From contig CANQQV010000001.1 in the NCBI GenBank assembly GCA_947626095.1, positions 98,009 through 162,008 of the forward strand: DNA of 64,000 bases, read 5' to 3'. Below, one piece after another: positions 33,761-61,738 of this stretch (within the stretch, counting starts at the first letter, position 1; each line of letters opens with the position of its first letter). The notes under the pieces are model-generated. The model was not told the origin of the DNA. It made no database searches and worked only from the letters and a program-made list of their open reading frames with translations. This DNA is from an uncultured Bacilli bacterium. GTDB taxonomy: Bacteria > Bacillota_I > Bacilli_A > RF39 > UBA660. The position numbers and the translations under genes were made by a program.

Positions 33761-34573
33761 ATATTAGAAACTTGTAATCCATACTACTCTACAATGTTAG
33801 GTAATTTATATAAAGGTGATTGTTTGGAAGTTATGGATTATCTTATTGAGCAAGGTGTGAAAGTTGATGCAATAATCACTGATCCACCTTATGCAGTAAC
33901 TGGTTTTGTTTGGGATCAGATAATTCCCCTTGATGCCATGTGGGATAAACTTACAAAGTTAATTAAGGATGATGGTGCTATTGTTCTTTTTGGGAATGAA
34001 CCATTTAGTAGTAATCTTCGCTTGAGTAATCCTAAACTATATCGTTATGATTGGAAATGGATTAAAACTCAAGTAACAGGATTTCAAAATGCTAAATGTC
34101 AACCACTGCGATGTTATGAAGATATTATGGTGTTTTCTAAAGCAGGAGCTGTAACTTCTGCAAAACCACCCATGAAATATTTTCCTCAAGGTGTTATTCC
34201 TGTAAATGTAAAAGTGACTACAACTCCTGTTAACTATTTAAGGGATAATAAAAAGTTCGATAAAATCAGTTATACTCAAGAAGAAGCCAACTACCCTAGA
34301 AATGTTATACAATTTGCTAGGGAAACGGAATTGTACCATCCAACACAAAAACCTATTGCTCTTATGGAGTATATAATTTCTACCTATACAAAACGAGGTG
34401 ATTTAGTTTTGGATTTTACAAGTGGCAGTGGTTCTACCCTGTTGGCATGTGAGGTTCTTAATCGTAAATGGATTGGGATCGAAATTACAGACAAATATTG
34501 TGAAGTCATAAAAAAAAGAATTCAAAAAGGAATTCAAATGAAAATACAATTTGAGTACGATTGTGATAATTAA
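33761..34573 (+). CDS. beta-class adenine/cytosine-N4 DNA methyltransferase, ATA start
   Basis: 270 residues. Motif IV IITDPPYAV comes first and motif I LDFTSGSGST is near the C-terminus, the beta-class order; HPTQKP and WIGIEI are also visible. The first ATG (33794) is 37 bases from the ribosome site and has none of its own. The frame is open back to ATA at 33761, four bases after GGAGG (AAGGAGGTGAG). No cognate nuclease adjoins it, so it is probably an orphan enzyme protecting element DNA. Confidence 0.85.
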   Translation: MLETCNPYYSTMLGNLYKGDCLEVMDYLIEQGVKVDAIITDPPYAVTGFVWDQIIPLDAMWDKLTKLIKDDGAIVLFGNEPFSSNLRLSNPKLYRYDWKWIKTQVTGFQNAKCQPLRCYEDIMVFSKAGAVTSAKPPMKYFPQGVIPVNVKVTTTPVNYLRDNKKFDKISYTQEEANYPRNVIQFARETELYHPTQKPIALMEYIISTYTKRGDLVLDFTSGSGSTLLACEVLNRKWIGIEITDKYCEVIKKRIQKGIQMKIQFEYDCDN

Positions 34574-34590
34574 ATATAGGAGGGATTTTA

Positions 34591-34692
34591 ATAATTAAAC
34601 AAAAAAATAGTCGAAATAACAAGGCACTCGTTTCATTCGACTACTATGATTATAACATTAAAACTGAAAAATTAACAGGAGGTATTGCTTAA
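34591..34692 (+). CDS. small protein, 33 aa, ATA start
   Basis: GGAGG, seven bases, then ATA ATT AAA CAA. The frame (IIKQKNSRNNKALVSFDYYD and on) stops in TAATG overlapping the next start. No ATG/GTG/TTG lies near the ribosome site, so it rests on the ATA start pattern seen throughout the element. Function unknown. Confidence 0.45.
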   Translation: MIKQKNSRNNKALVSFDYYDYNIKTEKLTGGIA

Positions 34693-34931
34693 TGGAAAGC
34701 ATACTTCAAGATGTACTTAAACTTATAAATGATGCTATGGGATTTTTAAGGTTGTTCGTTATTGGTGGAACAGCTTTTTTTGTTGCAAAAGATTTTGCTC
34801 TTAAAATGGCATCTAGTGATGATAATCAAAAAGCAAGTTATGATCGTAAGATAAAAACAACAATAATCGCAGGTGTTTCGGCACTTGTAACTACTCAATT
34901 TGTAACATGGATTCTAGGATACTTTCAATAA
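34692..34931 (+). CDS. VirB2/Maff2-like small membrane protein
   Basis: 79 residues with two membrane segments (FLRLFVIGGTAFFVAKDFAL and TTIIAGVSALVTTQFVTWIL) around a short polar loop, the size and layout of pilin-like TrbC/VirB2 or Maff2 proteins of Gram-positive conjugation systems. AGGAGG precedes ATG. Likely a structural part of the mating channel. Confidence 0.6.
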   Translation: MESILQDVLKLINDAMGFLRLFVIGGTAFFVAKDFALKMASSDDNQKASYDRKIKTTIIAGVSALVTTQFVTWILGYFQ

Positions 34932-35137
34932 TGAAACAAAAGGATTTTAATAAAACAATAAATGAAGTTTTAGATGAAGGTAAAATTGAAAATAAAGATA
35001 TTAAGAATATTGATACTTTAAGATATATTCTTGAAGATAAGAAAAATAAACATCAAAAAAATATTGAATTGAGATGTAATTTGGTAGATCTAATCAATGA
35101 TTTAGACTTCCTGAAACAATATTTAGAAAATAAGTGA
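34931..35137 (+). CDS. small helical protein, 68 aa
   Basis: Charged and helical (KQKDFNKTINEVLDEGKIEN and on). Its ATG overlaps the previous stop (TAATGA-type junction), so coupled translation is likely. An earlier in-frame ATG at 34907 lies inside the VirB2-like gene without a ribosome site. Function unknown. Confidence 0.5.
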   Translation: MKQKDFNKTINEVLDEGKIENKDIKNIDTLRYILEDKKNKHQKNIELRCNLVDLINDLDFLKQYLENK

Positions 35138-35190
35138 TTTGACATATTTTTAAATTAGAGCTAACATCACTTTCAAAGAGGTGGTTCTTA

Positions 35191-35829
35191 ATGAAAAAAG
35201 TTTTAATATCTATTTCAATAATACTTTTAGTTTCTATTTCCATAGTTTCTCTTTGGTTATTCACAGGCAAAGAGAAATTAAAAGAAAAAGATAACGATAA
35301 TAATTCTAGTGCAATTCAAGAAAACATAAACGAAGATCTAAATGAAAATGATAGTACCAACTATACTAATAAACCTGATGAGGTCTTAAATGGCGATGCT
35401 ATAACTAATAACAAAGAAACTGAACATCAAAGTTCTAATGATTCAAATAATACTATAAAAAATGATAATTCAAATAATAATGTTGCAAGTAAAAAAGAAG
35501 AAAACAAACAAAGTTCACAAAATAAGCCAAATTCAAATACAACACAATCAAATTCAAAACCTAGTAATAATACCCAACAAGAAAAACCTAAAGTAGAAGA
35601 ACAACCTAAAAGTTGTACTCCTAAAAAGTTTGATATGTCTTTCGTTCGTGCCGATTTTTCTTCTTTCGCAGAATGTACTGCTATGGGTGATAAATATAAA
35701 GCAAACGGATATGGTTATTATTGTGATAGTTATCAAGATGATTGCTTTGATACTTATTATATGTTGACTTTGTATGAGCCAAATACAGGAAAATTGTTTG
35801 ACTATCATACAATTTCGATACCTGAATAG
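35191..35829 (+). CDS. membrane-anchored Asn/Ser-rich protein with Cys C-terminal domain
   Basis: 212 residues. One N-terminal anchor (VLISISIILLVSISIVSLWL) is followed by a disordered Asn/Lys/Ser/Gln stalk of about 110 residues and a 65-residue domain with four Cys (SCTPKKFD, AECTAMG, YYCDSYQDDC). Probably displayed outside the cell next to the adhesin. No family recognised. Confidence 0.6.
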   Translation: MKKVLISISIILLVSISIVSLWLFTGKEKLKEKDNDNNSSAIQENINEDLNENDSTNYTNKPDEVLNGDAITNNKETEHQSSNDSNNTIKNDNSNNNVASKKEENKQSSQNKPNSNTTQSNSKPSNNTQQEKPKVEEQPKSCTPKKFDMSFVRADFSSFAECTAMGDKYKANGYGYYCDSYQDDCFDTYYMLTLYEPNTGKLFDYHTISIPE

Positions 35830-35842
35830 GTATCTTTTTTTT
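35817..35842 (+). terminator. terminator before the adhesin gene
   Basis: GATACC-TGAATA-GGTATC followed by T8. Confidence 0.8.
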
Positions 35843-35865
35843 GCAACAATTTAAGGAGGGATATA

Positions 35866-38595
35866 ATGAAAAGTAAATTAAAATATTTATTATTTTTATT
35901 GATGTTTGTTGCTGTTTGCCCTAGTTTAACTGCTCATGCAGAAACTTATAAGGCAGAATTCAACGACAAATATAAATGGATTCCTAATGTTTATGTAAGT
36001 AAGAAAGAGTCTAATGGTCGTGTTCATTATCAACAACTAACAATGATTGCTCGTAAAGGTGATAATCAATTTGTTTATTGTATTGAACCAGGTACTCCAT
36101 TAGATCCTAACGAAACTTATACAGGTCAAGATTACGATCAATCTTATGTCGCAAACATGACCCCTGAACAATGGAAAAGAATTCAATTGTTAGCATATTA
36201 TGGTTATGGTTATAGTGATAGTGAAGTAAATCACGATGATATCAAATGGTATTCAGTAACTCAATTTATGATTTGGAAGACTGTACCACATGGTATGGAT
36301 ATCTATTTTACTGATACCTTAAACGGAAATAAAATTACAAGATATACCGAAGAAATGGAAGAAATGGAAAGATTACTTTCTAACCATTATAAAGTTCCTG
36401 ATTTTGGAGCTACAAGTTTTGATATGGTTGTAGGAAATACATTAAAATTAACTGATTCAAATAATGTAATTTCTAAATATGCTGTACCAAGTAATGATCT
36501 TATCACTGCAAGTAAAAATGGTAATGAATTACATTTAACTGCTAAAGGTGTTGGTGATGCAACTTTAAAATTAACTAAAAAGGATTTAAAATACTCTCAT
36601 CCTACTATTGTTTATGTTAAACCTAATACTCAAGATTTAGTTCAAGTAGGAAGTTATGATCCTGTTGATACAACTATAAATCTTCATATTGTTGGTGGTA
36701 AAATTGCTATCAATAAAGTTGATTATGATACAGGTTTATCAGAGCCAAGAGGCATGGCTACTCTTGAAGGAGCTATCTATGGGGTATATTTAGAAGATGG
36801 TACTTATGTAACTCAAATGGTAACTGATAAAAATGGTCATGCACAAAGTGATTATTTACCAAGTTTAGGTAGATTTTATGTTCAAGAAATCAGCCCAAGT
36901 AAAGGTTATGAACTTGATACAAATAAATATTACTTTGACTTAACTAATGATAATTTAGATCCTGTTCTTCCTGTTCAAGAAAAAGTTATCGAACGAGAAT
37001 ATCAAATAACAAAAGTAGTCGCTACTGATAAAACACAAATTATGACTCCTGAACCTAATGTTCAATTTGGCATCTATGATCATAATAATAAACTTGTTAA
37101 AACTTTAACTACTGATGCTGAAGGAAAAATTACATTTACTCTCCCTTATGGTAAATATACTTTAAGACAATTAACGACTCCAAGTGGCTTTGAAAAGATA
37201 AAAGATTTTAATTTTGAAATTACGGAGTCAGGAGATACTATTAACAAGGTGTTCTCTAATGCAGAAATAACAGCAAGAATTAAAGTTGTTAAAATAGATC
37301 AAGATGGTAATGTTGTCACTAAAGCAGGTATTAAGTTTAAGATAAAGGATCTTTCAACAGGTAAATATGTATGTCAAACTGTTGCTTACCCTAATCAAAA
37401 AACTTACTGCGAATTTGAGACTGATGAAAATGGTATGCTTATAACTCCATACCCTTTAAATTCAGGTGACTATCAACTTGAAGAAGTAGACCAACTTATT
37501 GATGGATATTTATGGAACTCTGAACCATTAAAGTTCTCTATTAATGAAAACTCTGATATTAAAAGTACCAATGACTTTGATGCCATTATGGAAATTAGAT
37601 TTACTAATCAAGAAGTAAAAGGTAAAATTGAAATCCAAAAAACTGGCGAACAAGTCGTAATTGAGGATGGCAAATTCACTTATGTTGAAGTACCACTACC
37701 TAATATTACTTTCGGTTTATATGATGCTGAAGGTAGCTTGATTGATACTTATACTACTGATGAACAAGGTAGAATTGTTATCGAAGATCTTAAATTAGGT
37801 AATTATGTTTTAAAAGAACTTAAAACTGATGATAAATATGTTCTTGATGAAAAAGAATATAACATCGAGTTAAAGTATAAGGATCAATACACAGCTGTTG
37901 TAACTGAAACCTTTACTTTAAAAAATTACTTAAAGAAAGGTACTTTAGATTTTTCTAAAAAGGATCTAACAACTGGTAAAGAAATTCCTAATGTTAAATT
38001 AGAGGTTTATACTGAAAACGATGAGCTTATTTATAGTGGCATTACTGATGAAAATGGTAAAATCACTATCGAAGATTTATTCGTCGGTAAATTCTATATT
38101 GTTGAAACTGAACCTGCTACTGGTTATAAATTAAGTGATGAAAAAGTATATTTTGAAGTTAAGGAAAACGGCGAAATAGTAAAAGCCGAAATGACAAACG
38201 AAAAAATTACAGGATCACTTGAATTTACAAAAGAAGATCTTTCTACTGGTGAGGCACTTCCTAATACTTTAATCGAGGTATATAATGCCGAAACTGATGA
38301 GTTAGTATTTTCTGGTCGTACCGATGAAAACGGAAAGATTATTATTGAAAACTTGGAATATGGTAAATACTATATTTTAGAGAAGGAAGCTCCCGAAGGA
38401 TATAAATTAAATCCTGATAGAATGTATTTTGAAATTCTAGAGGACGGACAAGTTATTAAATCAGTAATGAAAGATGAAATTGTTGATGTTCCTAATACTG
38501 GTATCAATGATTATCATATTATTGATATTATAGGTCTTGTCTTTATCATTGGTGGTATTGGTTTCCTTATTTATGAAAAAACAAAGAAAAAATAA
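35866..38595 (+). CDS. thioester/Cna-B adhesin with sortase signal
   Basis: 909 residues. The signal peptide ends near AHA24. A thioester domain has Cys72 in YCIEPG and Gln133 in VTQFMIW, the pair that forms the internal thioester. Five or more SpaA/Cna-B modules follow; the last two are nearly identical in plan (TGKEIPNVKLEVY / TGEALPNTLIEVY and TDENGKI). The sorting signal is VPNTG, then a membrane helix and a Lys-rich tail. Such proteins bind covalently to surfaces. In this conjugative operon it probably attaches donor to recipient or host cells. The neighbouring sortase gene supports wall anchoring. Confidence 0.9.
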   Translation: MKSKLKYLLFLLMFVAVCPSLTAHAETYKAEFNDKYKWIPNVYVSKKESNGRVHYQQLTMIARKGDNQFVYCIEPGTPLDPNETYTGQDYDQSYVANMTPEQWKRIQLLAYYGYGYSDSEVNHDDIKWYSVTQFMIWKTVPHGMDIYFTDTLNGNKITRYTEEMEEMERLLSNHYKVPDFGATSFDMVVGNTLKLTDSNNVISKYAVPSNDLITASKNGNELHLTAKGVGDATLKLTKKDLKYSHPTIVYVKPNTQDLVQVGSYDPVDTTINLHIVGGKIAINKVDYDTGLSEPRGMATLEGAIYGVYLEDGTYVTQMVTDKNGHAQSDYLPSLGRFYVQEISPSKGYELDTNKYYFDLTNDNLDPVLPVQEKVIEREYQITKVVATDKTQIMTPEPNVQFGIYDHNNKLVKTLTTDAEGKITFTLPYGKYTLRQLTTPSGFEKIKDFNFEITESGDTINKVFSNAEITARIKVVKIDQDGNVVTKAGIKFKIKDLSTGKYVCQTVAYPNQKTYCEFETDENGMLITPYPLNSGDYQLEEVDQLIDGYLWNSEPLKFSINENSDIKSTNDFDAIMEIRFTNQEVKGKIEIQKTGEQVVIEDGKFTYVEVPLPNITFGLYDAEGSLIDTYTTDEQGRIVIEDLKLGNYVLKELKTDDKYVLDEKEYNIELKYKDQYTAVVTETFTLKNYLKKGTLDFSKKDLTTGKEIPNVKLEVYTENDELIYSGITDENGKITIEDLFVGKFYIVETEPATGYKLSDEKVYFEVKENGEIVKAEMTNEKITGSLEFTKEDLSTGEALPNTLIEVYNAETDELVFSGRTDENGKIIIENLEYGKYYILEKEAPEGYKLNPDRMYFEILEDGQVIKSVMKDEIVDVPNTGINDYHIIDIIGLVFIIGGIGFLIYEKTKKK

Positions 38596-39214
38596 AAATA
38601 ATGGTAAGAGCCGATTCATAGTAATTGGCTCTTTATTTATTTTGTTTGGTGTTTCTATTATTGGCTATCATATATATTCTAATTACAAGTTAGATAAAAT
38701 AGCAGACGATAATATTGAGCAATTTTTTGAAGAAGAAAAAATTATCGATGATCAGCCACAGGAAGAACAATTTGTTGAAGTAGAAAAAAAAGAAGTTAGT
38801 AAAACTAATTATGATTACATTGCTGTAATCGAAATACCTAAAATAAATGTTAAAAGAGGTTTGTCACAAGATAAATATTACAATAATGTTAATAGGAATA
38901 TTGAGATTCTTAAAGGATCTACTATGCCTGATGTTTCACAAGGTAATTTTATGGTTGCTGGTCATTCAGGTACAGCTCGAACTTCCTATTTTAGAAATTT
39001 AGATAAGTTAGTAATTGGGGATCTTACTTATATATATTACAATGGCATTAAATATACTTATAAAGTTAATAATATTTATGATATTGAAAAAACTGGTAAA
39101 GCAACTATTCGTAGGGATTTAAATAAAACTACTCTTACGATGATTACTTGCCGACATAATACCAACAAGCAGATTGTTGTTATTTCCGAGTTAGTTAATA
39201 AAGAAACTTATTAA
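38573..39214 (+). CDS. sortase
   Basis: 213 residues. A basic N-terminus and one membrane helix are followed by the sortase fold (IAVIEIPKINV). Catalytic His is in MVAGHSG and Cys in TMITCRH. The start overlaps the adhesin end by 23 bases, so the pair is coupled and the adhesin is the likely substrate. The class is uncertain (B- or D-like). Confidence 0.88.
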   Translation: MKKQRKNKNNGKSRFIVIGSLFILFGVSIIGYHIYSNYKLDKIADDNIEQFFEEEKIIDDQPQEEQFVEVEKKEVSKTNYDYIAVIEIPKINVKRGLSQDKYYNNVNRNIEILKGSTMPDVSQGNFMVAGHSGTARTSYFRNLDKLVIGDLTYIYYNGIKYTYKVNNIYDIEKTGKATIRRDLNKTTLTMITCRHNTNKQIVVISELVNKETY

Positions 39215-39227
39215 GGAGGAGTGATGA

Positions 39228-40583
39228 ATACAAATATTAGCAGTTAATCAAGTCGGACAAAAATGGTATCTTGATATATTAAGGAATGCTTTATGGAGTA
39301 TCGCTAAAGGTATTCTATGGTTTCTTGATGGCTTCTTTGATATCATTGATAAGATTTGGCGATATAAATTTTTTGATAATGATTATGTTAATAAGATTTT
39401 TGGTGGAGCTTTAATAATCGCCTGTTCATGGCTGATTCTTAAAACGATTATTGAATTGATTATGAATTATATAGTCAAAAACGATGGTCGTGGCAGTCCA
39501 CTAACTATTTATCGTGGTGTAATTCTTGCTATTGTAATGATGTTCTTAATCAATCCATTATTTCAATTTGGATATGATTTTTCGACTAAAACAACTGATG
39601 CTGTTATTTCAGTATCAGGTATGAGTGGATCTAGTAGTGCTGAAGGTACAATATCAAAAGCATTAATTAGGGCTATGTCGTATGATGATGAAATGAAAGA
39701 AAGCGATAAAAATTATTTAATAAACAATTGGAAGACCATAGATATAAATTCTACTGAAGGTGGAGTTGTTGGTATTGGTGATGTTTATAAATATTCGCTT
39801 AACTTTTTTATGCTGATAGTTCTCTCAATTGTAACTATCTTTTTATTATTCTTTGTGGCGATTCAGATGGCTAAACGAGTCATGGAAATCGCTCTGATGA
39901 AGATAGTCGGACCTTTCTGCTGTACGAGTCTGACTAACAATCAATCTAAAGCATTTGAAACATGGACTAAAAGTACAATGGGATATTTCCTTATAACTAT
40001 TGTTCAATTCATTTGTATAGGATTATTACTTAATATGTTTGGATCTGCTATTCAAGATAATGGAACTCTAACAGGAATATTCTTAATTATTGGTGCTTTA
40101 TTATTCGTAATAAGTACGCCTACATTAATTAGTTCTCTATTAGGTCAACAATCAGGTATGATGTCTGCCTTTGGCGATATGCAATCATTACTTGCAATTG
40201 GTAGTGGTGTTAATGCAGGGCTTTCTCTTGCTAAAGCAGGATCTATGTCTGCTCTTGGTATGGGAGCTAATGTTGTTAAAGGTGGAGCTAATAAAATATC
40301 AGGAGGCATTTCAAATATGTTTGGTGGACATGGTGGTGGTTCGTTAAATAAAGAACAAATGGCTAATGTTCAAGAAAAATTAGGACAACATAATAGTTAT
40401 GGTGCTAATCAATTAGTAAAACAATATACCCAAGAAAATATGAAGAAAAAACCTACTACTTCATTTACTAATTCTAATCCATATAAAAATCCATTCAGTA
40501 TGCAATATAACCCAATTAGAAATCAGTATATGAGCAATTCAGGACTTGAGGCAAATAGTAATTTTGATAGGAAGTGGTATTAA
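39228..40583 (+). CDS. VirB6/TrbL-like mating-channel membrane protein, ATA start
   Basis: 451 residues with an N-terminal amphipathic/membrane part (ILWFLDGFFDIIDKIW), about six membrane helices in the middle, and a Gly/Met/Asn-rich C-terminal tail. AAGGAGG is followed eight bases later by ATA CAA ATA TTA; the overlapping ATG only opens a seven-codon frame. Starting at a later TTG or ATG would delete the first membrane region. Likely the inner-membrane channel subunit of the type IV secretion system. Confidence 0.75.
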   Translation: MQILAVNQVGQKWYLDILRNALWSIAKGILWFLDGFFDIIDKIWRYKFFDNDYVNKIFGGALIIACSWLILKTIIELIMNYIVKNDGRGSPLTIYRGVILAIVMMFLINPLFQFGYDFSTKTTDAVISVSGMSGSSSAEGTISKALIRAMSYDDEMKESDKNYLINNWKTIDINSTEGGVVGIGDVYKYSLNFFMLIVLSIVTIFLLFFVAIQMAKRVMEIALMKIVGPFCCTSLTNNQSKAFETWTKSTMGYFLITIVQFICIGLLLNMFGSAIQDNGTLTGIFLIIGALLFVISTPTLISSLLGQQSGMMSAFGDMQSLLAIGSGVNAGLSLAKAGSMSALGMGANVVKGGANKISGGISNMFGGHGGGSLNKEQMANVQEKLGQHNSYGANQLVKQYTQENMKKKPTTSFTNSNPYKNPFSMQYNPIRNQYMSNSGLEANSNFDRKWY

Positions 40584-40855
40584 TGTATTTGATTCCAAAA
40601 AATATAAAAACAAAAAAAGAAATATTTAAAGGATTTGGTATATTCGAGTGTATTGCAATTGCAGTATCACTTGGCATTGGGTATTTTTGTTCATTATTGA
40701 TCTCTCAATTTAAAATTAAAATGATTTTATTTTGTGTTCCACCATTACTTATGTTTTTATTATTACTTCCCTTACCTAACGGAAGTACAGCTTTAACTAT
40801 TTTAAGAAAGTTTTTTATTTATCAAAAACATCAAAAATGTTTTAAAGTGAAATAA
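40583..40855 (+). CDS. PrgI-family (VirB3-like) protein
   Basis: 90 residues. The N-terminal YLIPKNIKTKKEIFKGFGIFE and two membrane helices are characteristic of PrgI/VirB3-like subunits that dock to VirB4. The ATG overlaps the VirB6-like stop (TAATG). In other systems the VirB4 gene follows at once, but here about 4.3 kb intervene. Confidence 0.8.
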   Translation: MYLIPKNIKTKKEIFKGFGIFECIAIAVSLGIGYFCSLLISQFKIKMILFCVPPLLMFLLLLPLPNGSTALTILRKFFIYQKHQKCFKVK

Positions 40856-40967
40856 TTATAATTTACTTATAGCCATTTTATACTTTTTGATTATCAATCC
40901 TAGTTAAAATGGGAATTTCATGATATAATTAATTTGTTAGTTTATGTCTTAAAGGATGTGATATAAA

Positions 40968-51224: not shown

Positions 51225-51225
51225 T

Positions 51226-51822: not shown

Positions 51823-52881
51823 ATGAAAGATGATTTTATCTTGGAAGATACAGAAACGACCAAGAGATTAAAAGAAATTTGTTTAAGTAGTAGTTATTCA
51901 TGTACTGGGGAAATTCGTAGATTGTTGAGTATGGAAGTGCTTCATAATCTAGTTAAGAAAATTCCTAAAGGCAATGTTAAATTATGTGGTAATATTTTGT
52001 TTGGAAGGGACAAGATTAGTAGCGAAGAAAAGTTTATTGAGAACTTGGATGATTATATCGGCTATGTCAAAGATCATTATCATATACAGCATAATGAGTT
52101 AACTTGTGTTTTAGAAGAAACTTTGAAAAGTAAATATTCAAAGATACTCTTTAATATGAAGGATATTCATAAAAAGGATAATTATATTCAGTTTCATGAT
52201 TCATTTAGAAAAATGTTCTTATTTAACCTATATGATAACATTCGTTTTTACTCAAAGTTTTCTGATAGTCGTTCTTTTACTAATATATTATTAGATGAAA
52301 TAAAAGAATATAATTTTGATAAACCCGAAGATGCTATTAAACTTGAAAAGTTATTTATTAAAATTATCAACAATAGAAAAGATAACTTATTTAATTCATT
52401 TGTACATCATAGTGAAGTTAGAGAGGATCAATATGATTTCTTTACTAATCAAATCGAATGGTTAATTGGTGATTATTATAAGGAAGGATCATATGATTTT
52501 GATTTAATGCATGATGATCACTATATTGAATTATTTAATAATGACACTTTGCTTTTTAATGTTATTTCAAAGAGTAAAGATGAAATTGTTGTTAGATTTG
52601 GAATTAAAAACAAAAACTTTAAAGGCGATAAAATAGTAAGATTTGGAAAAAATGAATTAGATATATTTTTAGAAAAATTAGTTTCTAAAGATCATACAAA
52701 AAAATATAAATTGGATATGCAACTAGTAGATGCAACATTATCTTTTGAGTTTTGGACTGATTATCATCATAATTTTTTAGATATTGCTTTTCAATATTCG
52801 AATACTGGTGATAAGTTTATTGTAGATTTAGAACCAGATGATATGCATAATTTATATAAAATTATAAAGAAACAAGTCTAA
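51823..52881 (+). CDS. element protein, 352 aa
   Basis: An N-terminal helical part (SSYSCTGEIRRLLSMEVLHN), a middle helical region and a beta-rich C-terminus (LSFEFWTDYHHNFLDIAF). No family recognised. It is divergent from the double-HTH gene. Its last codons form the hairpin in which the IS inserted, so originally it ran straight into VirD4. Confidence 0.55.
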   Translation: MKDDFILEDTETTKRLKEICLSSSYSCTGEIRRLLSMEVLHNLVKKIPKGNVKLCGNILFGRDKISSEEKFIENLDDYIGYVKDHYHIQHNELTCVLEETLKSKYSKILFNMKDIHKKDNYIQFHDSFRKMFLFNLYDNIRFYSKFSDSRSFTNILLDEIKEYNFDKPEDAIKLEKLFIKIINNRKDNLFNSFVHHSEVREDQYDFFTNQIEWLIGDYYKEGSYDFDLMHDDHYIELFNNDTLLFNVISKSKDEIVVRFGIKNKNFKGDKIVRFGKNELDIFLEKLVSKDHTKKYKLDMQLVDATLSFEFWTDYHHNFLDIAFQYSNTGDKFIVDLEPDDMHNLYKIIKKQV

Positions 52882-52889
52882 ACTTGTTT
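52870..52889 (+). repeat. IS target duplication, left
   Basis: AAACAAGTCTAAACTTGTTT, itself a perfect hairpin, repeated at 54563-54582. Confidence 0.85.
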
Positions 52890-54391: not shown

Positions 54392-54562
54392 TATTTATCA
54401 CATCCTTAGTTTAACCACTAATATTATCTCATAAAAGCAATAAAAAAACGAGATATATGTGACAAACATTGGTTAAACTAAGTCATATCTCGTAATTAAA
54501 TTATAAAATAAATTTAAAAAAAAGAAAAGACCATTAACAAAATTTCTTTTGTCAACAGTCTG
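52890..54562 (-). mobile_element. IS1182-family insertion sequence, 1673 bp
   Basis: Terminal inverted repeats CAGATTGTTGACAAAAG (left) and CTTTTGTCAACAGTCTG (right) match at 16 of 17 positions. One transposase gene fills the element. It is flanked by a 20-bp duplication of a terminator hairpin. A hairpin GGGTATTATT/AATAATGCCC plus T5 just inside the left end would stop transcription entering from the left. Confidence 0.9.
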
Positions 54563-54582
54563 AAACAAGTCTAAACTTGTTT
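54563..54582 (+). repeat. IS target duplication, right
   Basis: AAACAAGTCTAAACTTGTTT followed by T-rich sequence. Together with the trailing T this is the intact original terminator-like hairpin, 20 bases upstream of the VirD4 start. Confidence 0.85.
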
Positions 54583-54601
54583 TTTATTTGGAGGGATATA
54601 A

Positions 54602-56389
54602 ATAAAAATTAAAAAATACTTTAACTATTTTCTTTTATTCATCTTAACTTTTTTAGCATCCTCGAATATTTGCTATAATCTTACTCATATAATCGAAACA
54701 AATATAAAATTAACTTGGAATTTAAATTTCTTTCACTCCTTTCTAAAAACGATTACTGATGTTAGTTTATTATTTGGTTCATTATTGCTTATGTCAATTA
54801 TGATGTTATTTATATTGAAATATGATAAAGAATTTAAGTTAAAGCTAAATAAATTTAAAAAGATGCCTGAAGAAGACGGATCATATGAGTATGGATCTTC
54901 TCGTTGGGCTACTAAAAAAGAAATTAGAAAAAATTATAAGACATGGAATATCAATTCAAAATTAAAGTCAGGTGGTATTCCTGTAACTTATATGGATGGT
55001 AAATATTACTATTCGGATAAATTTGATCATACTTTGATTATTGGTTCTACTGGTTCAGGTAAAACTATCAGTTGTATATTGCCACTTATATTCAATTTAG
55101 GATGTGCTGGTGAGTCAATGGTTATAAATGATACTAAAGGCGAACTTTATTCTTATACTGCTGACTTTTTAAAGAAAAAAGGTTATAAGATTCGAATAAT
55201 CAATTTAAGAGATGCTCTTGCAAGTGATGGTTGGAACCCACTTCATTTACCTTATAAATATTATCAAAGTAATAATAAAGATGAGGCAGGAGATCTAATT
55301 GAAAACTTTTCTAAATCTTTATGTAAAAACTTATCATCTAAAGATATGTATTGGGAAAAGTCAGCAACTGCTGTTTTGTCTGCTTTATGTTATGCTCTTA
55401 TTGAAGATGCTCCTAGTGAGTCACAAGTAAATTTATATTCTATATATAATTTATTGGTTGAACATGGAAGTAAAACTATTGATAGATTCAACTCGTTAGA
55501 TTTATATTTTCAACAAAAACCTTTCGGTAGTTTAAGTAAGATGAGTTATGCTACTGGTTCTTTTGCAAAGGGCGAGACTAGAGCTACTCTTTTCTCTGTC
55601 CTAGCAACTGTCATCAAAATGTTTAGTGATACAGGAATTGCTAACTTAACTAGTCGTACTGATTTTGAATTAGATGATATTGGGAAAAAGAAAACTGCTG
55701 TATTTTTAATTATTCCTGATGAAAAAGAGTCTAGACATGAATTAGCATCATTGTTTATCGATCAATGCTATCAAGCATTAGTTAATACAGCTCAAAATAT
55801 GAAAGATGGTCGTATGCCTATTAGAGTTAATTTTATACTTGATGAATTTGCTAATATGCCACCTATAAGTTCTATATCAAATAAGATTACTGTCAGTCGA
55901 TCTCGTAATATTAGATTCTATTTAGTTTTACAAGATTTTGATCAGTTGAAAGAAACCTATAAAGATTCTGCAGGTACTATTAAATCAAATTGTACTAACT
56001 GGATTTATCTTCTGACTGCAGATAATGAAACAGCAAAAGAAATAAGTTCAAGGTTAGGAAAATATACTATTTCAAGTAACAGGGTTTCTACTTCTACTCG
56101 TTTGGAACAATTGGATTATAATATTTCGAATGATAAATCTTTAATTGGTCGTGAGTTATTGATGCCTGATGAACTTATGCGATTTAAATTAGGCGATGGC
56201 TTATTCATATCGGCTAGACAATACCCAATTAGATCTAAATTACTTCCTATTAGTCAGTATGGAATAAAAATAAAAATGTCATCCGTTCCTAAAAAAGCAA
56301 AAGACTTTACTATTGATTGCTTTAATCTTGATGAGTTTAGAAAGAAAAAAATACAACAAGACGATGATGGCAAGGTAGATTTAGTATAA
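54602..56389 (+). CDS. VirD4/TraG-like coupling protein, ATA start
   Basis: 595 residues. GGAGGG then ATA AAA ATT AAA (seven bases after GGAGG). The frame from ATA encodes two N-terminal membrane helices (YFLLFILTFLASSNICYNL and SLLFGSLLLMSIMMLFIL) expected for VirD4, whereas starting at the first ATG (54791 or nearby) removes the first helix. Walker A is IIGSTGSGKTISCI and Walker B is NFILDEFANMP. It couples the relaxosome and protein substrates to the channel. Confidence 0.93.
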   Translation: MKIKKYFNYFLLFILTFLASSNICYNLTHIIETNIKLTWNLNFFHSFLKTITDVSLLFGSLLLMSIMMLFILKYDKEFKLKLNKFKKMPEEDGSYEYGSSRWATKKEIRKNYKTWNINSKLKSGGIPVTYMDGKYYYSDKFDHTLIIGSTGSGKTISCILPLIFNLGCAGESMVINDTKGELYSYTADFLKKKGYKIRIINLRDALASDGWNPLHLPYKYYQSNNKDEAGDLIENFSKSLCKNLSSKDMYWEKSATAVLSALCYALIEDAPSESQVNLYSIYNLLVEHGSKTIDRFNSLDLYFQQKPFGSLSKMSYATGSFAKGETRATLFSVLATVIKMFSDTGIANLTSRTDFELDDIGKKKTAVFLIIPDEKESRHELASLFIDQCYQALVNTAQNMKDGRMPIRVNFILDEFANMPPISSISNKITVSRSRNIRFYLVLQDFDQLKETYKDSAGTIKSNCTNWIYLLTADNETAKEISSRLGKYTISSNRVSTSTRLEQLDYNISNDKSLIGRELLMPDELMRFKLGDGLFISARQYPIRSKLLPISQYGIKIKMSSVPKKAKDFTIDCFNLDEFRKKKIQQDDDGKVDLV

Positions 56390-56395
56390 TTATGT

Positions 56396-56425
56396 TATAA
56401 TATTTAGTGAAACAAATAGTAATTT
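56396..56425 (+). promoter_or_regulatory. cassette promoter repeat copy C
   Basis: 30 bp beginning TATAATATTTAGTGAAACAA and ending TAGTAATTT. It differs from 31978-32007 at one position and from 32047-32076 at two. Confidence 0.7.
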
Positions 56426-56439
56426 GTAGGAGGAAAATT

Positions 56440-56874
56440 ATGAAATTATTTAAAAAATCAAAAAATAATAATTTTGAGTTAATATGTGAAAAAATGGCAA
56501 ATGAGTTAATTAGTTTATATAATAAAAATAAAGGTATATCTTTTGAAAATATTTCTGAATTAGAAAGACAAATTTTAGCAGTATATTTTTTTGGTATGAG
56601 TGATGGATTAAGACAAGATTTAGCGACTAATTCAAATGTAAATGAAATAGCCAATATAATTATAAATATTATGATTAAAGATTTTAAGTATTCAAAAGAA
56701 CAAGCAGAACAATTCTTTGATGAAATGATAGATAATCTTCAAAGTAAAAATCCAAGCAACACCCATTATGCTATTATTCACAATGGTCTTGATGGTTATT
56801 TTAAATGGCAAAAAAATAACAAAAATGAAGTGATTAACGATATTTGTAAAATTATTGATATACTAAAAAAGTAG
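56440..56874 (+). CDS. cargo protein, 144 aa, possibly Imm48-like
   Basis: Helical, with MKLFKKSKNNNFELICEKMA at the start and a FFGMSDGLRQDLA segment resembling small immunity proteins. AGGAGGAAAATT precedes the ATG at 56440. It is bracketed by cassette repeats (56396 and 56879). No toxin gene adjoins it, so it could be an orphan immunity gene; this is tentative. Confidence 0.5.
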   Translation: MKLFKKSKNNNFELICEKMANELISLYNKNKGISFENISELERQILAVYFFGMSDGLRQDLATNSNVNEIANIIINIMIKDFKYSKEQAEQFFDEMIDNLQSKNPSNTHYAIIHNGLDGYFKWQKNNKNEVINDICKIIDILKK

Positions 56875-56878
56875 CATT

Positions 56879-56906
56879 AAATTACAATTTATATAATCAA
56901 AAAAAT
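56879..56906 (+). repeat. cassette downstream repeat, copy C
   Basis: AAATTACAATTTATATAATC followed by AAAAAAAT. Matches 32361-32394. Confidence 0.55.
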
Positions 56907-56978
56907 CTAACTCTACTAATTGTAGGTGTTAAAAATTGTGTTAATATTATATAGTTGTTTTTGAAAGGAGCAAGAAGT

Positions 56979-58130
56979 ATGGATCAAGAAAAAATAGGAA
57001 AATTCATTGCAACTTGTAGAAAAGAACAAAAATTAACACAAGAGCAACTTGCTGAAAAATTAGGAATAACTTATAAAGCAGTATCTAAATGGGAATGTGG
57101 TAAGGGATTACCTGATGCATCTATTATGATGGAGTTATGCAAAATTTTAAAAATAACAGTTAATGATTTATTAAGTGGCGAAAAAGTTAAAGAAAAAGAA
57201 TATCAAGAAAAACTAGAAAAAAACATTATTGATACAATAGATTATTCTACCAAAAAATTATTTGAAAAAAATAAACTGATTTATCAAATGCTTATATTCT
57301 TTGGTTTAGTTTTAATCTTTATTGCCTTTACTAATTTTCCAAATGATAGTAGTTGGGGTTCTATTCATTCTATGATAGGATTACTTATTTCTACTTTTGG
57401 GATTGTTAATATAAAAAGTGGTAAAACTATTTTAAAAAAGATATCTTTGGGTATAGTTTATTTTATGATAGGTTTTATATTATTACTTTTACTTGATTAT
57501 TCTAATGTAGTATTAAATAAAGTTGCCCCTAGATTTTCTTATTTAAAAGAAACTGGGGATACTATGATTATTTATAAAGCACCTTTTTATAATGTATATA
57601 GAATAAATAGAGATACTAAAAATGAGTATTATATAATCGATACAAAAAAAGAATACACAGAAAGTAATATACCGATAACTCCATTTAATAGAGACAAATC
57701 AGGAATTGACAACATAATACAATATAAAAATAAATATGTTGGTAATAATAGTAATGATAGTCATTTAATAGATAACTTACCACTCGCTGAATATGGATAT
57801 GTATTTGAAATAGATTCTAAAAATCTAGGACTTATTATTGATTACCACATTACAGACTGGTATGTTAATGAGGGACATTATTTGGAAAAATCATTATTAT
57901 ATAATTCAGTATCAATATTTGCTTTAATAGATAATGTAGAACAAATTACTTTTAATTTTAGTGGGAATACATATATAGTAAGTAGAAAACAAATAAATGA
58001 ATTGTATCCTAATTTTAAAGATATAGTAAATAATGGAATTAATCAAAATAATTTCAATAAGTATTTAGAAAGCAAAATTAATGATAATAATTTTGTGGAA
58101 GATACATTTAAAAAAATATTTGTTAATTAA
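56979..58130 (+). CDS. XRE-family regulator with membrane and external domain
   Basis: 383 residues. The N-terminal HTH (KLTQEQLAEKLGITYKAVSK) and the WECGKGLPDASIMMELCKIL signature are typical of Firmicutes XRE proteins. Three membrane helices (residues about 105-185) and a C-terminal domain of about 190 residues, presumably external, follow. GAAAGGAGC precedes ATG. It may sense an envelope signal. It has its own terminator, so it is probably independent cargo. Confidence 0.75.
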   Translation: MDQEKIGKFIATCRKEQKLTQEQLAEKLGITYKAVSKWECGKGLPDASIMMELCKILKITVNDLLSGEKVKEKEYQEKLEKNIIDTIDYSTKKLFEKNKLIYQMLIFFGLVLIFIAFTNFPNDSSWGSIHSMIGLLISTFGIVNIKSGKTILKKISLGIVYFMIGFILLLLLDYSNVVLNKVAPRFSYLKETGDTMIIYKAPFYNVYRINRDTKNEYYIIDTKKEYTESNIPITPFNRDKSGIDNIIQYKNKYVGNNSNDSHLIDNLPLAEYGYVFEIDSKNLGLIIDYHITDWYVNEGHYLEKSLLYNSVSIFALIDNVEQITFNFSGNTYIVSRKQINELYPNFKDIVNNGINQNNFNKYLESKINDNNFVEDTFKKIFVN

Positions 58131-58144
58131 ATTATAATTTATTC

Positions 58145-58172
58145 GAGTAGAAAACCATCTACTCTTTTTTTA
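58145..58172 (+). terminator. terminator before the accessory operon
   Basis: GAGTAGA-AAACCA-TCTACTC followed by T7. Confidence 0.85.
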
Positions 58173-58189
58173 TAGGAGGAGGAATAAAA

Positions 58190-58894
58190 ATAGTATTTGA
58201 AAAAAATAGTAGTTTGGAAGTAAGCCAAACTTTTTTTAATGAATTAGAAAAGAAATTAAAAAATGCACCAGATTCTTTGAATGGATATTATAAAACTTTT
58301 AATAATTGCCGAGAACAAGGATTAATGTTAACGATTTATAATGATAACGATAATGAAATATTGGTATGGGCTTGTGAAAGTCGTAATAGCGATAATATTA
58401 TGGTTATTACAGCTGATCGTAATTGTTCTGATATAAACGATATGTTTAATGATGTTGCATGGCAATCTGCTAAATATTTCAAATGTGGTGATTATGATTC
58501 AGCAGTTAATTATGCTTTTAATGTTATAAAAAAACAATTCAAAAATGATTTTCCTGAAATCTCTAATACAAAGTTTGAAATGTATAAATCTCTTTCGGAT
58601 ATTCAAAGAATAGAGGCAGATGCAAAACAATTAGATTATGAAGATTATAAAGATCTTGCTAATTTTGAAGATGTAAATGAAGGATATTTTTGTGATCTAA
58701 TAATTATGGATGGTAAGTTAGGTTTAAGATATTCAAAATATTGTGATGAATGCCATGATGAATTCGATAATCTTATCTTTGAAGAATGGCATCCCGATTT
58801 AACAAGTAGCACTACTTTAATGTTAGGGATGCAAAATAAATTAAAAGATTTTGTAGATAAAGAAATAGATTACGAAGTTAATATTGGCATTTAA
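58190..58894 (+). CDS. accessory protein, 234 aa, ATA start, IxI tail
   Basis: GGAGG, seven bases, ATA GTA TTT GAA; the first TTG (58214) has no ribosome site. The central part (FNNCREQGLMLTIYN, then WACESRNSDNIMVIT) is paralogous to the protein at 61025. It ends YEVNIGI, the shared tail. First gene of the accessory operon; function unknown. Confidence 0.6.
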   Translation: MVFEKNSSLEVSQTFFNELEKKLKNAPDSLNGYYKTFNNCREQGLMLTIYNDNDNEILVWACESRNSDNIMVITADRNCSDINDMFNDVAWQSAKYFKCGDYDSAVNYAFNVIKKQFKNDFPEISNTKFEMYKSLSDIQRIEADAKQLDYEDYKDLANFEDVNEGYFCDLIIMDGKLGLRYSKYCDECHDEFDNLIFEEWHPDLTSSTTLMLGMQNKLKDFVDKEIDYEVNIGI

Positions 58895-58910
58895 ATATAG
58901 GAGGTAAAAT

Positions 58911-59387
58911 ATGTTTGATGAAAACAAAATAAAAAGAATTAAAGAACAATACCCTAAAGGTACTGAAATAGAACTTATTAGTATGGAAGATTCTCAAGCT
59001 GTACCATCAGGGACACATGGGGTTGTAGATTTTGTAGATGATATTGGTACTATTTTTATGAAATGGGATAATGGTTCATCTCTTGGTTTGGTTGTTGGCG
59101 AGGATCAATTTAGAGTTGTTAAAAGACCAAATCTTGCTCGTGAAGAATTAGAAAAAGCAAAGAAACAACTTAAAGATAATGATACTTTATCTTTATTTAC
59201 TTATAACAAAGAAACAGGAAGTACAGGTGTTGCATCTTTCATACAAAATGAAAATAAAGTTAAAGTTTTTGAAGGAAACCCTGACGGATCTGATGATATC
59301 ATTATGGACTATGATGAATTTGTAAATAATTACAAATATGAGGTTGCTAATGAATTTGATAATCCTTTTAAGGATATAGGTATTTAG
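58911..59387 (+). CDS. DUF4314-like accessory protein, IxI tail
   Basis: 158 residues. The N-terminal domain (RIKEQYPKGTEIELISMEDS, then GTHGVVDFVDDIGTIFMKWD) matches DUF4314, an SH3-like domain common in Gram-positive conjugative elements near antirestriction genes. It ends FKDIGI. TAGGAGGTAAAAT precedes ATG. Confidence 0.75.
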   Translation: MFDENKIKRIKEQYPKGTEIELISMEDSQAVPSGTHGVVDFVDDIGTIFMKWDNGSSLGLVVGEDQFRVVKRPNLAREELEKAKKQLKDNDTLSLFTYNKETGSTGVASFIQNENKVKVFEGNPDGSDDIIMDYDEFVNNYKYEVANEFDNPFKDIGI

Positions 59388-59398
59388 GAGGGATATAT

Positions 59399-59971
59399 AT
59401 AGAAGTTAAAAATATTTCTTGTAAGGAAGTAAAAGAATTACGAAAAGATGAATACGAATATTTAGTATTACAAGGTTGTGGTGGTGACCTTAATGAATGG
59501 GTTAACAGCTTTACTAAAATGTTAAAAGATGAAGGGATCGTAAGTGATTCCTTTTCTTTTAGTAGAGTTTATTCGTTTAAAAATAATGAGTTAACTAATT
59601 TACTTTTTCCACTCTTTGATAAGGATATTATAATGACAAAATTAGCAATGTTTAGACTAAAAATTAGGGATAACTTTGGAGCTATGTGGCTATCTGATTA
59701 TATTGATAATGGTTATATAAAAGACATAGAAAAACCTAAAGCCCCTATTATTGGAGCTGATGGTAATGTCTTTAATTTAATTGGGATATGTAGTCGTGTA
59801 TTAAGAAAAGCAGGATACTCAGATCAGGCAAAAGAAATGACTGATAGAATTACAAATTCAAAAAGTTATGATGATGCTCTTTCTATAATGTGTGAATATA
59901 TAGAACCAGTCGATCAAAACTATAATACCATTGATGTTTTTAGCGATGATGATATCGATATAGATATATAA
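59399..59971 (+). CDS. accessory protein, 190 aa, ATA start, IxI tail
   Basis: GGAGG, seven bases, ATA GAA GTT AAA; starting at the later ATG (59519) would drop 40 residues. The C-terminal part, PIIGADGNVFNLIGICSRVL and ALSIMCEYI, is a conserved small domain found in conjugative elements next to DUF4314 and ArdC genes. The end is strongly acidic and reads DDDIDIDI. Confidence 0.65.
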   Translation: MEVKNISCKEVKELRKDEYEYLVLQGCGGDLNEWVNSFTKMLKDEGIVSDSFSFSRVYSFKNNELTNLLFPLFDKDIIMTKLAMFRLKIRDNFGAMWLSDYIDNGYIKDIEKPKAPIIGADGNVFNLIGICSRVLRKAGYSDQAKEMTDRITNSKSYDDALSIMCEYIEPVDQNYNTIDVFSDDDIDIDI

Positions 59972-59983
59972 GGAGGATTGAGG

Positions 59984-61012
59984 TTGTTAGAAGAACAATT
60001 AAAGAAAATAAATGAATTAAGTTTTCAAACAAATAAAACAAAAGATGTTCAAGAAAAAGAAAAATTAGAAGATGATATTAAGTCTATAATTAACGATCTA
60101 AAAAAACAAGCAATTGAAAGTTTTAAATCTGAAAGTGATGTTAAAAAGTTTTTGGATAATATCGTTAAATTTAATAATTATTCTTATAATAATCAATGTT
60201 TAATTTGGATGCAAAAACCTGATGCGAGTTATGTAGCACCACTTCGTACTTTTAATAAAATGGGATATCGTATTAACTCTAATGAAAAAGGTATTAAAAT
60301 ATTAGTTCCTACTTTTTATACTATTGTAAAAATTAAAACTGATGAAGAAGGCAAATATATAGTAAAACCTTTATTTAGTTTGACGGATGAAGAAAGAAAA
60401 AAATATGAAAACAAAGATGACGATTCTATTACTTATCATAGTCAAAAGTTAAGTAACTTTAAAATTGGGACTGTCTTTGATGCTAGTCAAACTACTATGC
60501 CATTAGATGCGATAGAAGAAAAATTAAATCCTGTATTAGAGGATGATCGTGCTAGTGGTATGGAAGATAACTTTATTAAAGCTATTTATCGTAATGGGTT
60601 CAAAGTTCGTTATGAAGAAAAGATAGAGTCAGGTGCTAAAGGTTATTGTGACTTTGAAAAAAATGAGATAGTTGTATTAAAAGGTTTAAGTAATCTTATG
60701 AGGTTAAAAGTAGTTATTCATGAATATGCCCACTCCCTTGCTCATAAGCATTTACTTAATAATAATATGGATTATCAAACAAATAGAAATAAATATGAAA
60801 CGGAGGCAGAGTCTATTGCTTATGTTGTATCAAAATATTTAGGTTTAGATACAAGTTCATATTCACAAATGTATTTATATTCTTGGAGTAAGGATAAAGA
60901 CTTTAAAGAAATTGATGATTCATTAAGTTCTATCGTTAACTATTCAAAAATGATTATAGATAATTATGAAAAAATTGTTTCTAAAGATTTAGAACAAAAT
61001 ATTGCTATATAG
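59984..61012 (+). CDS. ArdC-like antirestriction zincin, IxI tail
   Basis: About 342 residues. The N-terminal ArdC-type single-strand-binding region has NNYSYNNQCLIWMQKP and FNKMGYRINSNEKGIKILVP. The metallopeptidase part has VVIHEYAHSLAH near residue 245 and a downstream Glu (ETEAESIAY). TTG at 59984 is seven bases after AAGGAGG; an upstream TTG overlaps the ribosome site. ArdC and the related TraC primase domain are known to enter recipients with conjugated DNA. It ends EQNIAI, the shared tail. Confidence 0.85.
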   Translation: MLEEQLKKINELSFQTNKTKDVQEKEKLEDDIKSIINDLKKQAIESFKSESDVKKFLDNIVKFNNYSYNNQCLIWMQKPDASYVAPLRTFNKMGYRINSNEKGIKILVPTFYTIVKIKTDEEGKYIVKPLFSLTDEERKKYENKDDDSITYHSQKLSNFKIGTVFDASQTTMPLDAIEEKLNPVLEDDRASGMEDNFIKAIYRNGFKVRYEEKIESGAKGYCDFEKNEIVVLKGLSNLMRLKVVIHEYAHSLAHKHLLNNNMDYQTNRNKYETEAESIAYVVSKYLGLDTSSYSQMYLYSWSKDKDFKEIDDSLSSIVNYSKMIIDNYEKIVSKDLEQNIAI

Positions 61013-61024
61013 TGAGGTGTTCTT

Positions 61025-61438
61025 ATGATAATGAAACATAAAAGCATAGATCTATCTAGTCGAGTTGTTAATGGAATATATGATAAAGCAAATAAAAGTT
61101 TCAAAGGATTAGATGGAATTATTGAGGTTTTTAATAATACAAGAGATCAAGGTTATATTTTAAAAATATATGATTCTTATGATCCACAATATGATACTTG
61201 TATTTGGGTTTATGATGTTCCTTATGATGAAAAATTAGTTGTAATCTTTGGTAATAGATTAGATTGTAATAGTGATAATTCTTGGAATAAGGAAATGTTT
61301 GAAAGTAGAAAAGAATATGTCTTATCAGAGCATGGAGGTATTCTTGCAACTGTGACTCTTGTGACTGATGAATTATTTGATTACTTAAAAGAAAAGTATG
61401 ATAAAGATGAAAAAATGGATGTTCATCTAAATATATAA
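61025..61438 (+). CDS. accessory protein, 137 aa, IxI tail
   Basis: Contains FNNTRDQGYILKIYDSYD and IWVYDVPYDEKLVVIFGNR, paralogous to the middle of the protein at 58190. It ends DVHLNI. GTGAGGTGTTCTT lies before the ATG. Function unknown; part of the accessory operon. Confidence 0.6.
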   Translation: MIMKHKSIDLSSRVVNGIYDKANKSFKGLDGIIEVFNNTRDQGYILKIYDSYDPQYDTCIWVYDVPYDEKLVVIFGNRLDCNSDNSWNKEMFESRKEYVLSEHGGILATVTLVTDELFDYLKEKYDKDEKMDVHLNI

Positions 61439-61450
61439 GGAGGATTAGAT

Positions 61451-61738
61451 ATAGAGGATAAGAAATATACTCTTGGTGATTTAATAACTTGTATTGGAAG
61501 TCTAGTAAAAGATTATGAAAATGACTTGAATAATCATCAAATAAATGGTAATAAACAACACAGGTTAGTTAAAACCAAAGATGTAGTTAAGGAATACCCA
61601 ATCTTAACTTTGTATGCTCTTGAAAAAGCAGTCAAAGAAAATAAGATTCCTTATACTCGAGTTGGTAATACTAATTACTTTGATGTTGTAGATATAGAAG
61701 AATATATAACATCCAATAAGCGAAATGGTGATGATTAG
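61451..61738 (+). CDS. xis: excisionase-like HTH protein, ATA start
   Basis: 95 residues. AAGGAGG, seven bases, ATA GAG GAT AAG; the ATG at 61526 has no ribosome site. The C-terminal domain LVKTKDVVKEYP, IPYTRVGNTNYF and VDIEEYITSNK is a MerR/HTH_17-type winged helix, usual for excisionases. It lies two bases before the integrase gene. It lacks the shared IxI tail. Confidence 0.7.
   Translation: MEDKKYTLGDLITCIGSLVKDYENDLNNHQINGNKQHRLVKTKDVVKEYPILTLYALEKAVKENKIPYTRVGNTNYFDVVDIEEYITSNKRNGDD

Follow-up and report, generated by a model that had tools for sequence, protein, structure and literature searches.

Do many genes of a bacterial mobile element begin at AUA, and if so, to what end? The question is raised by a conjugative element of approximately 33 kb (30767-63819) in a stretch of 64,000 nucleotides from an uncultured Bacilli bacterium (GTDB order RF39; assembly GCA_947626095.1, contig CANQQV010000001.1, positions 98,009 to 162,008), referred to here as the window. 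The window has a GC content of 27% and belongs to a metagenome-assembled genome (MAG) of 1.6 Mb in 34 contigs, with 91% completeness and 7.9% contamination. An earlier note on this DNA proposed that eleven genes of the element start at ATA, each at a short distance from a strong Shine-Dalgarno (SD) sequence. Our comparison with related elements establishes such starts by position, spacing and N-terminal conservation, together with their restriction to the element in the sampled sequences, their gene-specificity and a third codon position that favors A over T. The reading that we favor, with a probability of about 0.62, is that a strong SD combined with a weak AUA acts as a conserved translational throttle on many conserved genes and is read by a CAU initiator.

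All eleven ATAs and their SD distances were located where the earlier note had placed them, including GGGGG instead of GGAGG at 44607, gaps of 8 nt at 39228 and 44967, and a gap of 4 nt at 33761. Nine of the eleven proposed starts gain support from homologues that carry a weak start at the same place, whereas those at 33761 and 34591 are not secure. The genes concerned, all on the forward strand, are the following.

33764..34573, forward strand: DNA methylase (Pfam N6_N4_Mtase), start probably UUA 33764, which follows GGAGG by 7 nt
34591..34692, forward strand: frame of 33 codons, ATA 7 nt after GGAGG, a single diverged homologue
39228..40583, forward strand: TrbL (VirB6-like; Pfam TrbL_4), AUA start with the SD 8 nt before it
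44607..44963, forward strand: conserved protein of no known function, AUA start after GGGGG
44967..45209, forward strand: NikA-like ribbon-helix-helix (RHH) protein, AUA start
48151..48414, forward strand: small conserved protein, AUA start
48760..48936, forward strand: small protein, AUA start, RelB/DinJ-like match below cut-off only
54602..56389, forward strand: VirD4 coupling protein of the CD1115 family, AUA start with an in-frame TAA directly before it
58190..58894, forward strand: conserved protein of no known function, AUA start
59399..59971, forward strand: conserved protein of no known function, AUA start
61451..61738, forward strand: conserved protein of no known function, AUA start

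The supported sites differ in how many homologues speak for them. In the right-hand part of the element, the start codon is ATA in 11 of 15 copies at 58190 (ATT 2, ATC 1, none 1), in 6 of 9 at 59399 (TTG 1, none 2) and in 11 of 13 at 61451 (ATC 1, TTA 1). In the VirD4 gene at 54602, ATA lies seven bases after GGAGG and the first canonical codon (AUG, GUG or UUG) 61 codons downstream; relatives carry ATA, GTA, ATT, ATC or TTA in its place, and an in-frame ATG one base after GGAGG is also present in three of them (L009, L011, L012). A weak codon occupies the 44607 position in 13 of 13 copies. At 48760, twelve copies gave ATA 5, ATT 4, ATG 1, TTG 1 and none 1; the window copy has an in-frame ATG 14 codons upstream of its ATA, and L002, L003 and L005 have ATT after the SD with no canonical codon in frame. 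The same three loci, which are near-identical to one another, share ATA with the window at 44967 and are the only other loci in which the gene at 48151 was found (ATA in 4 of 4 copies). At 39228, the first canonical codon comes 76 codons downstream, and the sole homologue found (L015) has ATT.

Of the two insecure sites, 33761 is not supported as a start: its ATA lies 4 nt from GGAGG, and two close homologues, L228 and L232, have AAA there but keep a TTA 7 nt after GGAGG that corresponds to TTA 33764 in the window. An ATG at 33794 is not conserved, and other homologues have ATG, TTG or ATA near there. The methylase start is likely UUA 33764 rather than ATA 33761. The only homologue of the frame at 34591 is 57% identical over 28 residues and has ATT after the SD.

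The use of AUA is wider than the earlier note proposed, and it has exceptions. Two genes with canonical starts in the window, VirB4 and ArdC, mostly start at AUA in other members of the family, whereas two neighbors that served as controls keep canonical starts.

45202..47562, forward strand: VirB4 ATPase, ATG in the window
59984..61012, forward strand: ArdC-like protein, TTG in the window
58911..59387, forward strand: DUF4314 protein, ATG start, canonical control neighbor
61025..61438, forward strand: protein of no known function, ATG start, canonical control neighbor

Among 13 copies of VirB4, ATA was found in 6, ATC in 1 and ACG in 1, with ATG in the subgroup of the window and mostly ATA elsewhere; among 16 copies of ArdC, the counts were ATA 12, TTG 3 and CTG 1. 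A second RHH gene (RHH2, 48933) switches its start class between subgroups as VirB4 does, but with weaker SDs. The control at 58911 had ATG in 6 and TTG in 2 of 8 copies, that at 61025 gave 7 canonical calls, no strict non-canonical call and 3 set aside, and in each of the six genomes read a third neighbor, at 34692, starts with ATG, GTG or TTG.

The comparison rests on 26 named MAG loci (L002-L027) obtained by a VirD4 scan, of which L002-L005, L016/L020 and L024/L025 were handled as near copies. Among named genomes, the nearest relatives belong to uncultured Bacilli, Tenericutes, Erysipelotrichaceae and one 'Clostridia' MAG, and by title several of them come from ruminant or other gut sources; two scans of viral contigs found no relative, and plasmids and phages gave relatives of less than 60% identity only. 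For each GGAGG in these loci, the codon at each distance was tabulated where it opened a frame of at least 50 codons, a non-canonical codon being counted only if no canonical start lay nearby. At 6-9 nt after GGAGG (315 sites), the eight most frequent codons were ATA 60, ATG 49, TTG 15, ATT 11, GTA 5, TAT 4, GAA 4 and ATC 2. ATA peaked at 7 and 8 nt (21 and 26 sites, against 22 and 5 for ATG), distances at which TAT, TTA and AAT occurred 0-1 times each. This peak at 7-8 nt, which codons of the same composition do not share, indicates that ATA stands there more often than by chance. At least one open-frame ATA at 6-9 nt was present in 19 of the 26 loci; L002-L005, L009, L018 and L023 had none by this rule, although L002, L003 and L005 still have ATA in 44607, 44967 and 48151. 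Across the whole MAG, the pattern GGAGGN{6,9}ATA is not in excess (78 matches vs 99 for the reversed pattern), and 13 of the 78 lie on the coding strand of the element. In type-1 loci, GGAGG or GGGGG accompanied 65 ATA and 51 ATG, and AGGAG not followed by G accompanied 4 and 21 (p = 3e-4), a contrast of little weight because these loci include chromosomal flanks with ATG genes.

A second tally was blind to the codon. In 18 gene families, the strongest SD near the conserved N-terminus was located and the in-frame codon 6-8 nt after it was read, whatever it was. Once near-identical loci had been collapsed, 137 gene instances with a strong SD gave ATA 68, ATG 16, ATT 9, TTG 9, TAT 8, TTA 6, ATC 5, GTA 4, AAT 4, CTG 2, TTT 2 and four singles; the calls of TAT and AAT, and part of those of TTA, are artefacts that arose where an AUA lay at 9-10 nt or the start fell beyond the range searched. 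A call counted as strictly non-canonical if, reading upstream in frame, a stop was reached before any canonical codon and the seven codons that follow held none either. By this rule, 74 instances were strictly non-canonical and 26 canonical; of the others, 26 had an upstream canonical codon in the same frame and 11 had one at most seven codons downstream. The strict set comprised ATA 57 (six of them at 9-10 nt), ATT 4, ATC 3, CTG 2, GTA 2 and six others. The 37 ambiguous calls, including 7 of the 11 copies of 44607, were excluded from our claims. As a separate observation, 7 of the 82 non-redundant AUN starts are preceded, at exactly 4 nt, by an out-of-frame ATG (ATGNATA or ATGNATC), namely 39228, VirB4 of L010 and the homologues of 61451 in L007, L012, L015, L017 and L020; most of these ATGs seem to open a short frame.

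Which genes start weakly is largely conserved within the element family. In five families (58190, 61451, 59399, ArdC and VirD4), strict and canonical calls numbered 50 weak and 4 canonical, against 0 weak and 13 canonical in the two control neighbors (58911 and 61025); the difference gives p = 9e-11, with families chosen after the data had been seen. The third position of the start codon is also biased, since strict starts have A over T by 57 to 4, where internal isoleucine codons predict a fraction of 0.376 (p = 5e-20). At four-fold sites of the element, T is the commonest base (54.7%) and G accounts for 4.3%.

Further support comes from the N-terminal segments that separate AUA from the first canonical codon. 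They look translated, since they evolve as protein in the seven families with enough pairs. The ratio of non-synonymous to synonymous divergence (pN/pS) in this segment and in the rest of the protein was compared in these seven families and in one pair of 44967; in most of them the two parts are similarly constrained. The values were 0.58 vs 0.57 for 44607, 0.56 vs 0.60 for 58190, 0.42 vs 0.40 for ArdC, 0.46 vs 0.35 for 59399 and 0.72 vs 0.68 for 61451; they are rough because synonymous sites are near saturation (pS 0.49-0.63).

These starts belong to the element and not to its host, as far as the chromosomes were sampled. The chromosomal part of the window has ATG 6 and ATA 0, in agreement with the earlier statement that chromosomal genes there lack ATA starts. 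Samples of 400 kb from the same MAG outside the window and 258 kb from three other carriers bear this out. After GGAGG or GGGGG, the former gave ATG 49 and TTG 4, with one ATA (a 61-codon frame) and one ATC (an Ala/Gly-rich frame of 585 codons) set aside before the zero count, and the latter gave ATG 37, TTG 2 and GTG 2 with no ATA, ATT, ATC or GTA. Together, the four carriers show 94 canonical starts and 0 credible AUA, which rules out a host-wide AUA habit for the sampled sequence; against the 57 strict ATA and 26 canonical starts of the elements, this contrast has p = 2e-26 with the two sites set aside.

Other type IV secretion system (T4SS) loci help to delimit the habit. Eight type-3 loci of the order (~38% VirD4 identity) gave ATG 14 and one ATA in a 55-codon frame, and six outgroup loci gave ATG 36, with no ATA in four of them and the other two, GC-rich, represented by their best twelve codons. 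Four type-2 loci (~50% VirD4 identity), at least two of them near copies, use GGGGG and gave ATG 12, ATA 4, ATT 3, TTG 3 and GTA 1, so the AUA habit is not wholly confined to type 1. In contrast to the element, two plasmid regions with distant relatives have canonical annotated starts in 44 of 44 uncut genes (25 of 25 in L205 and 19 of 19 in L206), a weak control because annotation pipelines seldom call AUA. A VirD4 homologue is also present in 179 of 193 genomes of the order, most of those listed being ~35-40% identical with frames of ~650-900 codons; a second T4SS may therefore be nearly universal in these ~1-Mb genomes.

Several other accounts are rejected or disfavored. The starts recur in differently titled MAGs among the 26 loci, which excludes a sequencing or assembly error of a single genome. 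A change of code with AUA as Met is ruled out as well: across four proteins, the residues aligned with internal ATA were Ile 610, Leu 65, Val 51 and Met 32 times, much as for ATT and ATC, so that AUA is not Met inside genes, in keeping with the earlier note. A-to-I editing of AUA is disfavored, since homologues have AUU and AUC at these places too.

The earlier note had offered a throttle and an unusual initiator tRNA or initiation factor 3 (IF3) as possible explanations. The tRNA part found no support, since a CAT anticodon was present in every one of the best 30 initiator-type tRNA loci, drawn from 60 genomes of the order, and the initiator loop, recovered in seven of nine carrier genomes, was CAT in all seven and TAT in none. 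An initiator with a UAU anticodon was sought in the host and the element and not found; in the MAG of the window, where its own initiator gene was not found either, this absence is weak because only 21 tRNAs scored above the cut-off. By profile score, the IF3 gene of the host is an unremarkable member of TIGR00168, and it apparently starts at TTG.

The throttle, by comparison, fits best because the weak start class is largely conserved gene by gene. Under this reading, CD1115/MobL-type elements of an uncultured gut Bacilli order would start many conserved genes at AUA (68 of the 137 strong-SD instances) and rarely at AUU, AUC, GUA or UUA, with a strong GGAGG some 7-9 nt before the start. AUA would be read by the ordinary CAU initiator tRNA through a third-position mismatch; the strong SD would make such initiation possible by bringing the ribosome in, and AUA would hold protein synthesis to a fraction of the AUG level. 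Selection would then maintain this reduced yield, and the arrangement might sense IF3 or growth state.

A number of observations weigh against the throttle. The start class is not constant in every family: VirB4 and ArdC change it, as does RHH2, whose SDs are weaker. The absence of ATG among 53 AUN starts in six weak families is not significant alone (P = 0.096 against composition) because G is so rare at four-fold sites. The upstream or downstream canonical codons of 26 and 11 of the 137 calls offer other places to start, as do an in-frame ATG six bases upstream in 9 of 82 AUN calls, the canonical codon in frame upstream in 7 of 11 non-redundant copies of 44607 (the window copy has none), and a TTG five codons downstream of the 44967 start in L002, L003 and L005. 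The N-termini of VirD4 and VirB4 are less constrained than the rest (pN/pS 0.40 vs 0.27 and 0.56 vs 0.23), and the value for 44967 (0.88 vs 0.84) comes from a single uninformative pair. If the aim is a lower yield, a weaker SD would seem the more direct means. Should the GUA and UUA starts be real, they are weaker than expected under a simple near-cognate model. Purpose is the weak step of the throttle argument.

Drift, the most serious of the rivals and still rather unlikely as a full account, explains part of the pattern. In this explanation, AT-biased mutation turns AUG into AUA in genes under weak selection for expression, and the element puts up with the change, which serves no control. 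AT-rich genomes commonly undergo G-to-A changes, and the scarcity of G at four-fold sites, the class-switching families and the non-significant lack of ATG are all as drift would have it. However, T rather than A is the commonest four-fold base, yet starts are ATA in 57 cases and ATT in 4; both the coding sequence and the SD have been kept; and the neighbors at 58911, 61025 and 34692 remain canonical in the same elements.

An improbable alternative is a dedicated channel, in which a wobble-modified initiator tRNA, or a factor of the element or host, accepts A at the third codon position. The f5C34 wobble modification of the initiator tRNA in mitochondria offers a model. We consider it just as doubtful that the element family runs part of its gene set on a channel taking AUA, GUA and UUA, through such a tRNA or a conserved element protein, with the transfer genes fully translated only when it is open. 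The strong preference for A over T would suit such a channel, as would GTA (VirD4 of L002-L005) and TTA (methylase) at the proper SD distance, both of which hint that a third-position A is the tolerated feature, and the presence of four conserved element proteins of no known function (44607, 58190, 59399 and 61451). On the other hand, the best 30 loci and the nine carriers yielded no TAT-anticodon initiator, none of the 30 element proteins scanned against Pfam matched a translation factor or tRNA-modifying family, AUU, AUC, CUG and UUG stand at the same positions in homologues, and some genes of the same elements keep AUG. That the proteins start elsewhere, at an in-frame upstream canonical codon or by re-initiation after an out-of-frame AUG with AUA merely nearby, draws on the 26 of 137 ambiguous calls and the ATG 4 nt before 7 of 82 weak starts but is very unlikely given the 74 strict instances, which have no canonical codon in frame upstream or in the next seven codons, and the stop directly before the ATA of the window VirD4.

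The element that carries these starts has defined ends and a recognizable conjugation module.

30767..63819, no strand assigned: the element, flanked by two copies of CTCCAAAACCG within a split tRNA-Trp gene
30929..31002, forward strand: element-borne tRNA-Trp (CCA), divergent and full-length, just inside the left end
49348..50787, forward strand: MobL relaxase (profile match), ATG start
61741..63321, forward strand: tyrosine integrase (profile match)

The host tRNA-Trp gene is interrupted in its anticodon loop at 30767 and 63809, CTCCAAAACCG being common to both sites, and its halves joined in silico give an intact tRNA-Trp (ARAGORN), which defines the element ends and the integration site. 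The split gene and the element tRNA-Trp occupy 30737-31002 and 63809-63852 of the window. L021 has an intact tRNA-Trp and, ~240 nt upstream of it, a similar 5' part of tRNA-Trp. A tRNA-Cys is present in five other relatives (L015, L017, L020, L024 and L025), perhaps the same device with a different tRNA; the four of these that were checked showed no split tRNA-Cys core.

Thirty element proteins were scanned against Pfam and ten against NCBIfam. The matches include a sortase, a thioester-domain/SpaA-like surface protein, an M23 peptidase, two NikA-like RHH proteins and an ArdC-like protein, as well as TrbL (TrbL_4), VirB4 (P-loop_TraG), the relaxase (MobL) and the integrase (Phage_integrase), the last four families all within one element. 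VirD4 exceeds the curated cut-off of the CD1115 family (NF045973, 383.7 bits vs 250). On these profile matches, the element is a CD1115-type conjugative element of Bacillota with a MobL relaxase. It shares VirD4, TrbL, VirB4 and a relaxase with CD1115-family elements, which we take to be Tn1549/CTn-like, and its PrgI-like protein falls below the cut-off (21.6 bits vs 27). The genes at 44082, 50826 and 56440, all with ATG starts, resemble immunity proteins (Imm51, WapI-like and Imm48). A pair at 40968-43941 is presumably a set of type I modification and specificity subunits (HsdM/HsdS), separate from the methylase at 33764, and a minus-strand gene at 52889-54394, ending ~200 bases upstream of virD4, we take to be transposase-like.

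Weak AUN starts have precedents. In E. coli, infC starts at AUU and is subject to autoregulation by IF3, and the AUU start of pcnB reportedly limits its expression; both share a weak AUN start with the element genes but are chromosomal and use AUU. Polard et al. are said to have described, in 1991, initiation at an AUU codon in IS911, which, judged by the title of that work, is likewise a mobile element with an AUN start but a single insertion sequence using AUU. In S. aureus, infC, ccpN and citZ start at AUA and cvfC1 at AUU, and AUA with an extended SD yields ~10% of the AUG level, a figure that reaches 30% for ccpN when the medium is rich (PMC13009471). The infC, ccpN and citZ starts resemble those of the element in placing AUA after a strong extended SD, the ccpN start being conserved between S. 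aureus and B. subtilis; these are single chromosomal genes, however, whereas the element genes form a family-wide set in a mobile element whose sampled host chromosomes lack AUA starts. As in genes of the weak-AUN-start type, the element genes have an AUN start other than AUG at SD distance, and their homologues conserve it. Individual bacterial genes with AUA starts have thus been described. Our searches of an open-licence PMC library, which lacks most subscription journals, turned up no account of gene-specific AUA starts used across a whole family of mobile or conjugative elements.

If the throttle is real, gene callers limited to AUG, GUG and UUG would trim conserved N-termini, for VirD4 the first 60 codons with their hydrophobic stretch. 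The family would also offer a natural set of AUA, AUU, AUC, GUA and UUA starts with strong SDs for studying how initiation is policed. Start-codon control was found described only for isolated bacterial genes; here, start-codon strength would be a conserved, gene-by-gene layer of control across a whole family of conjugative elements.

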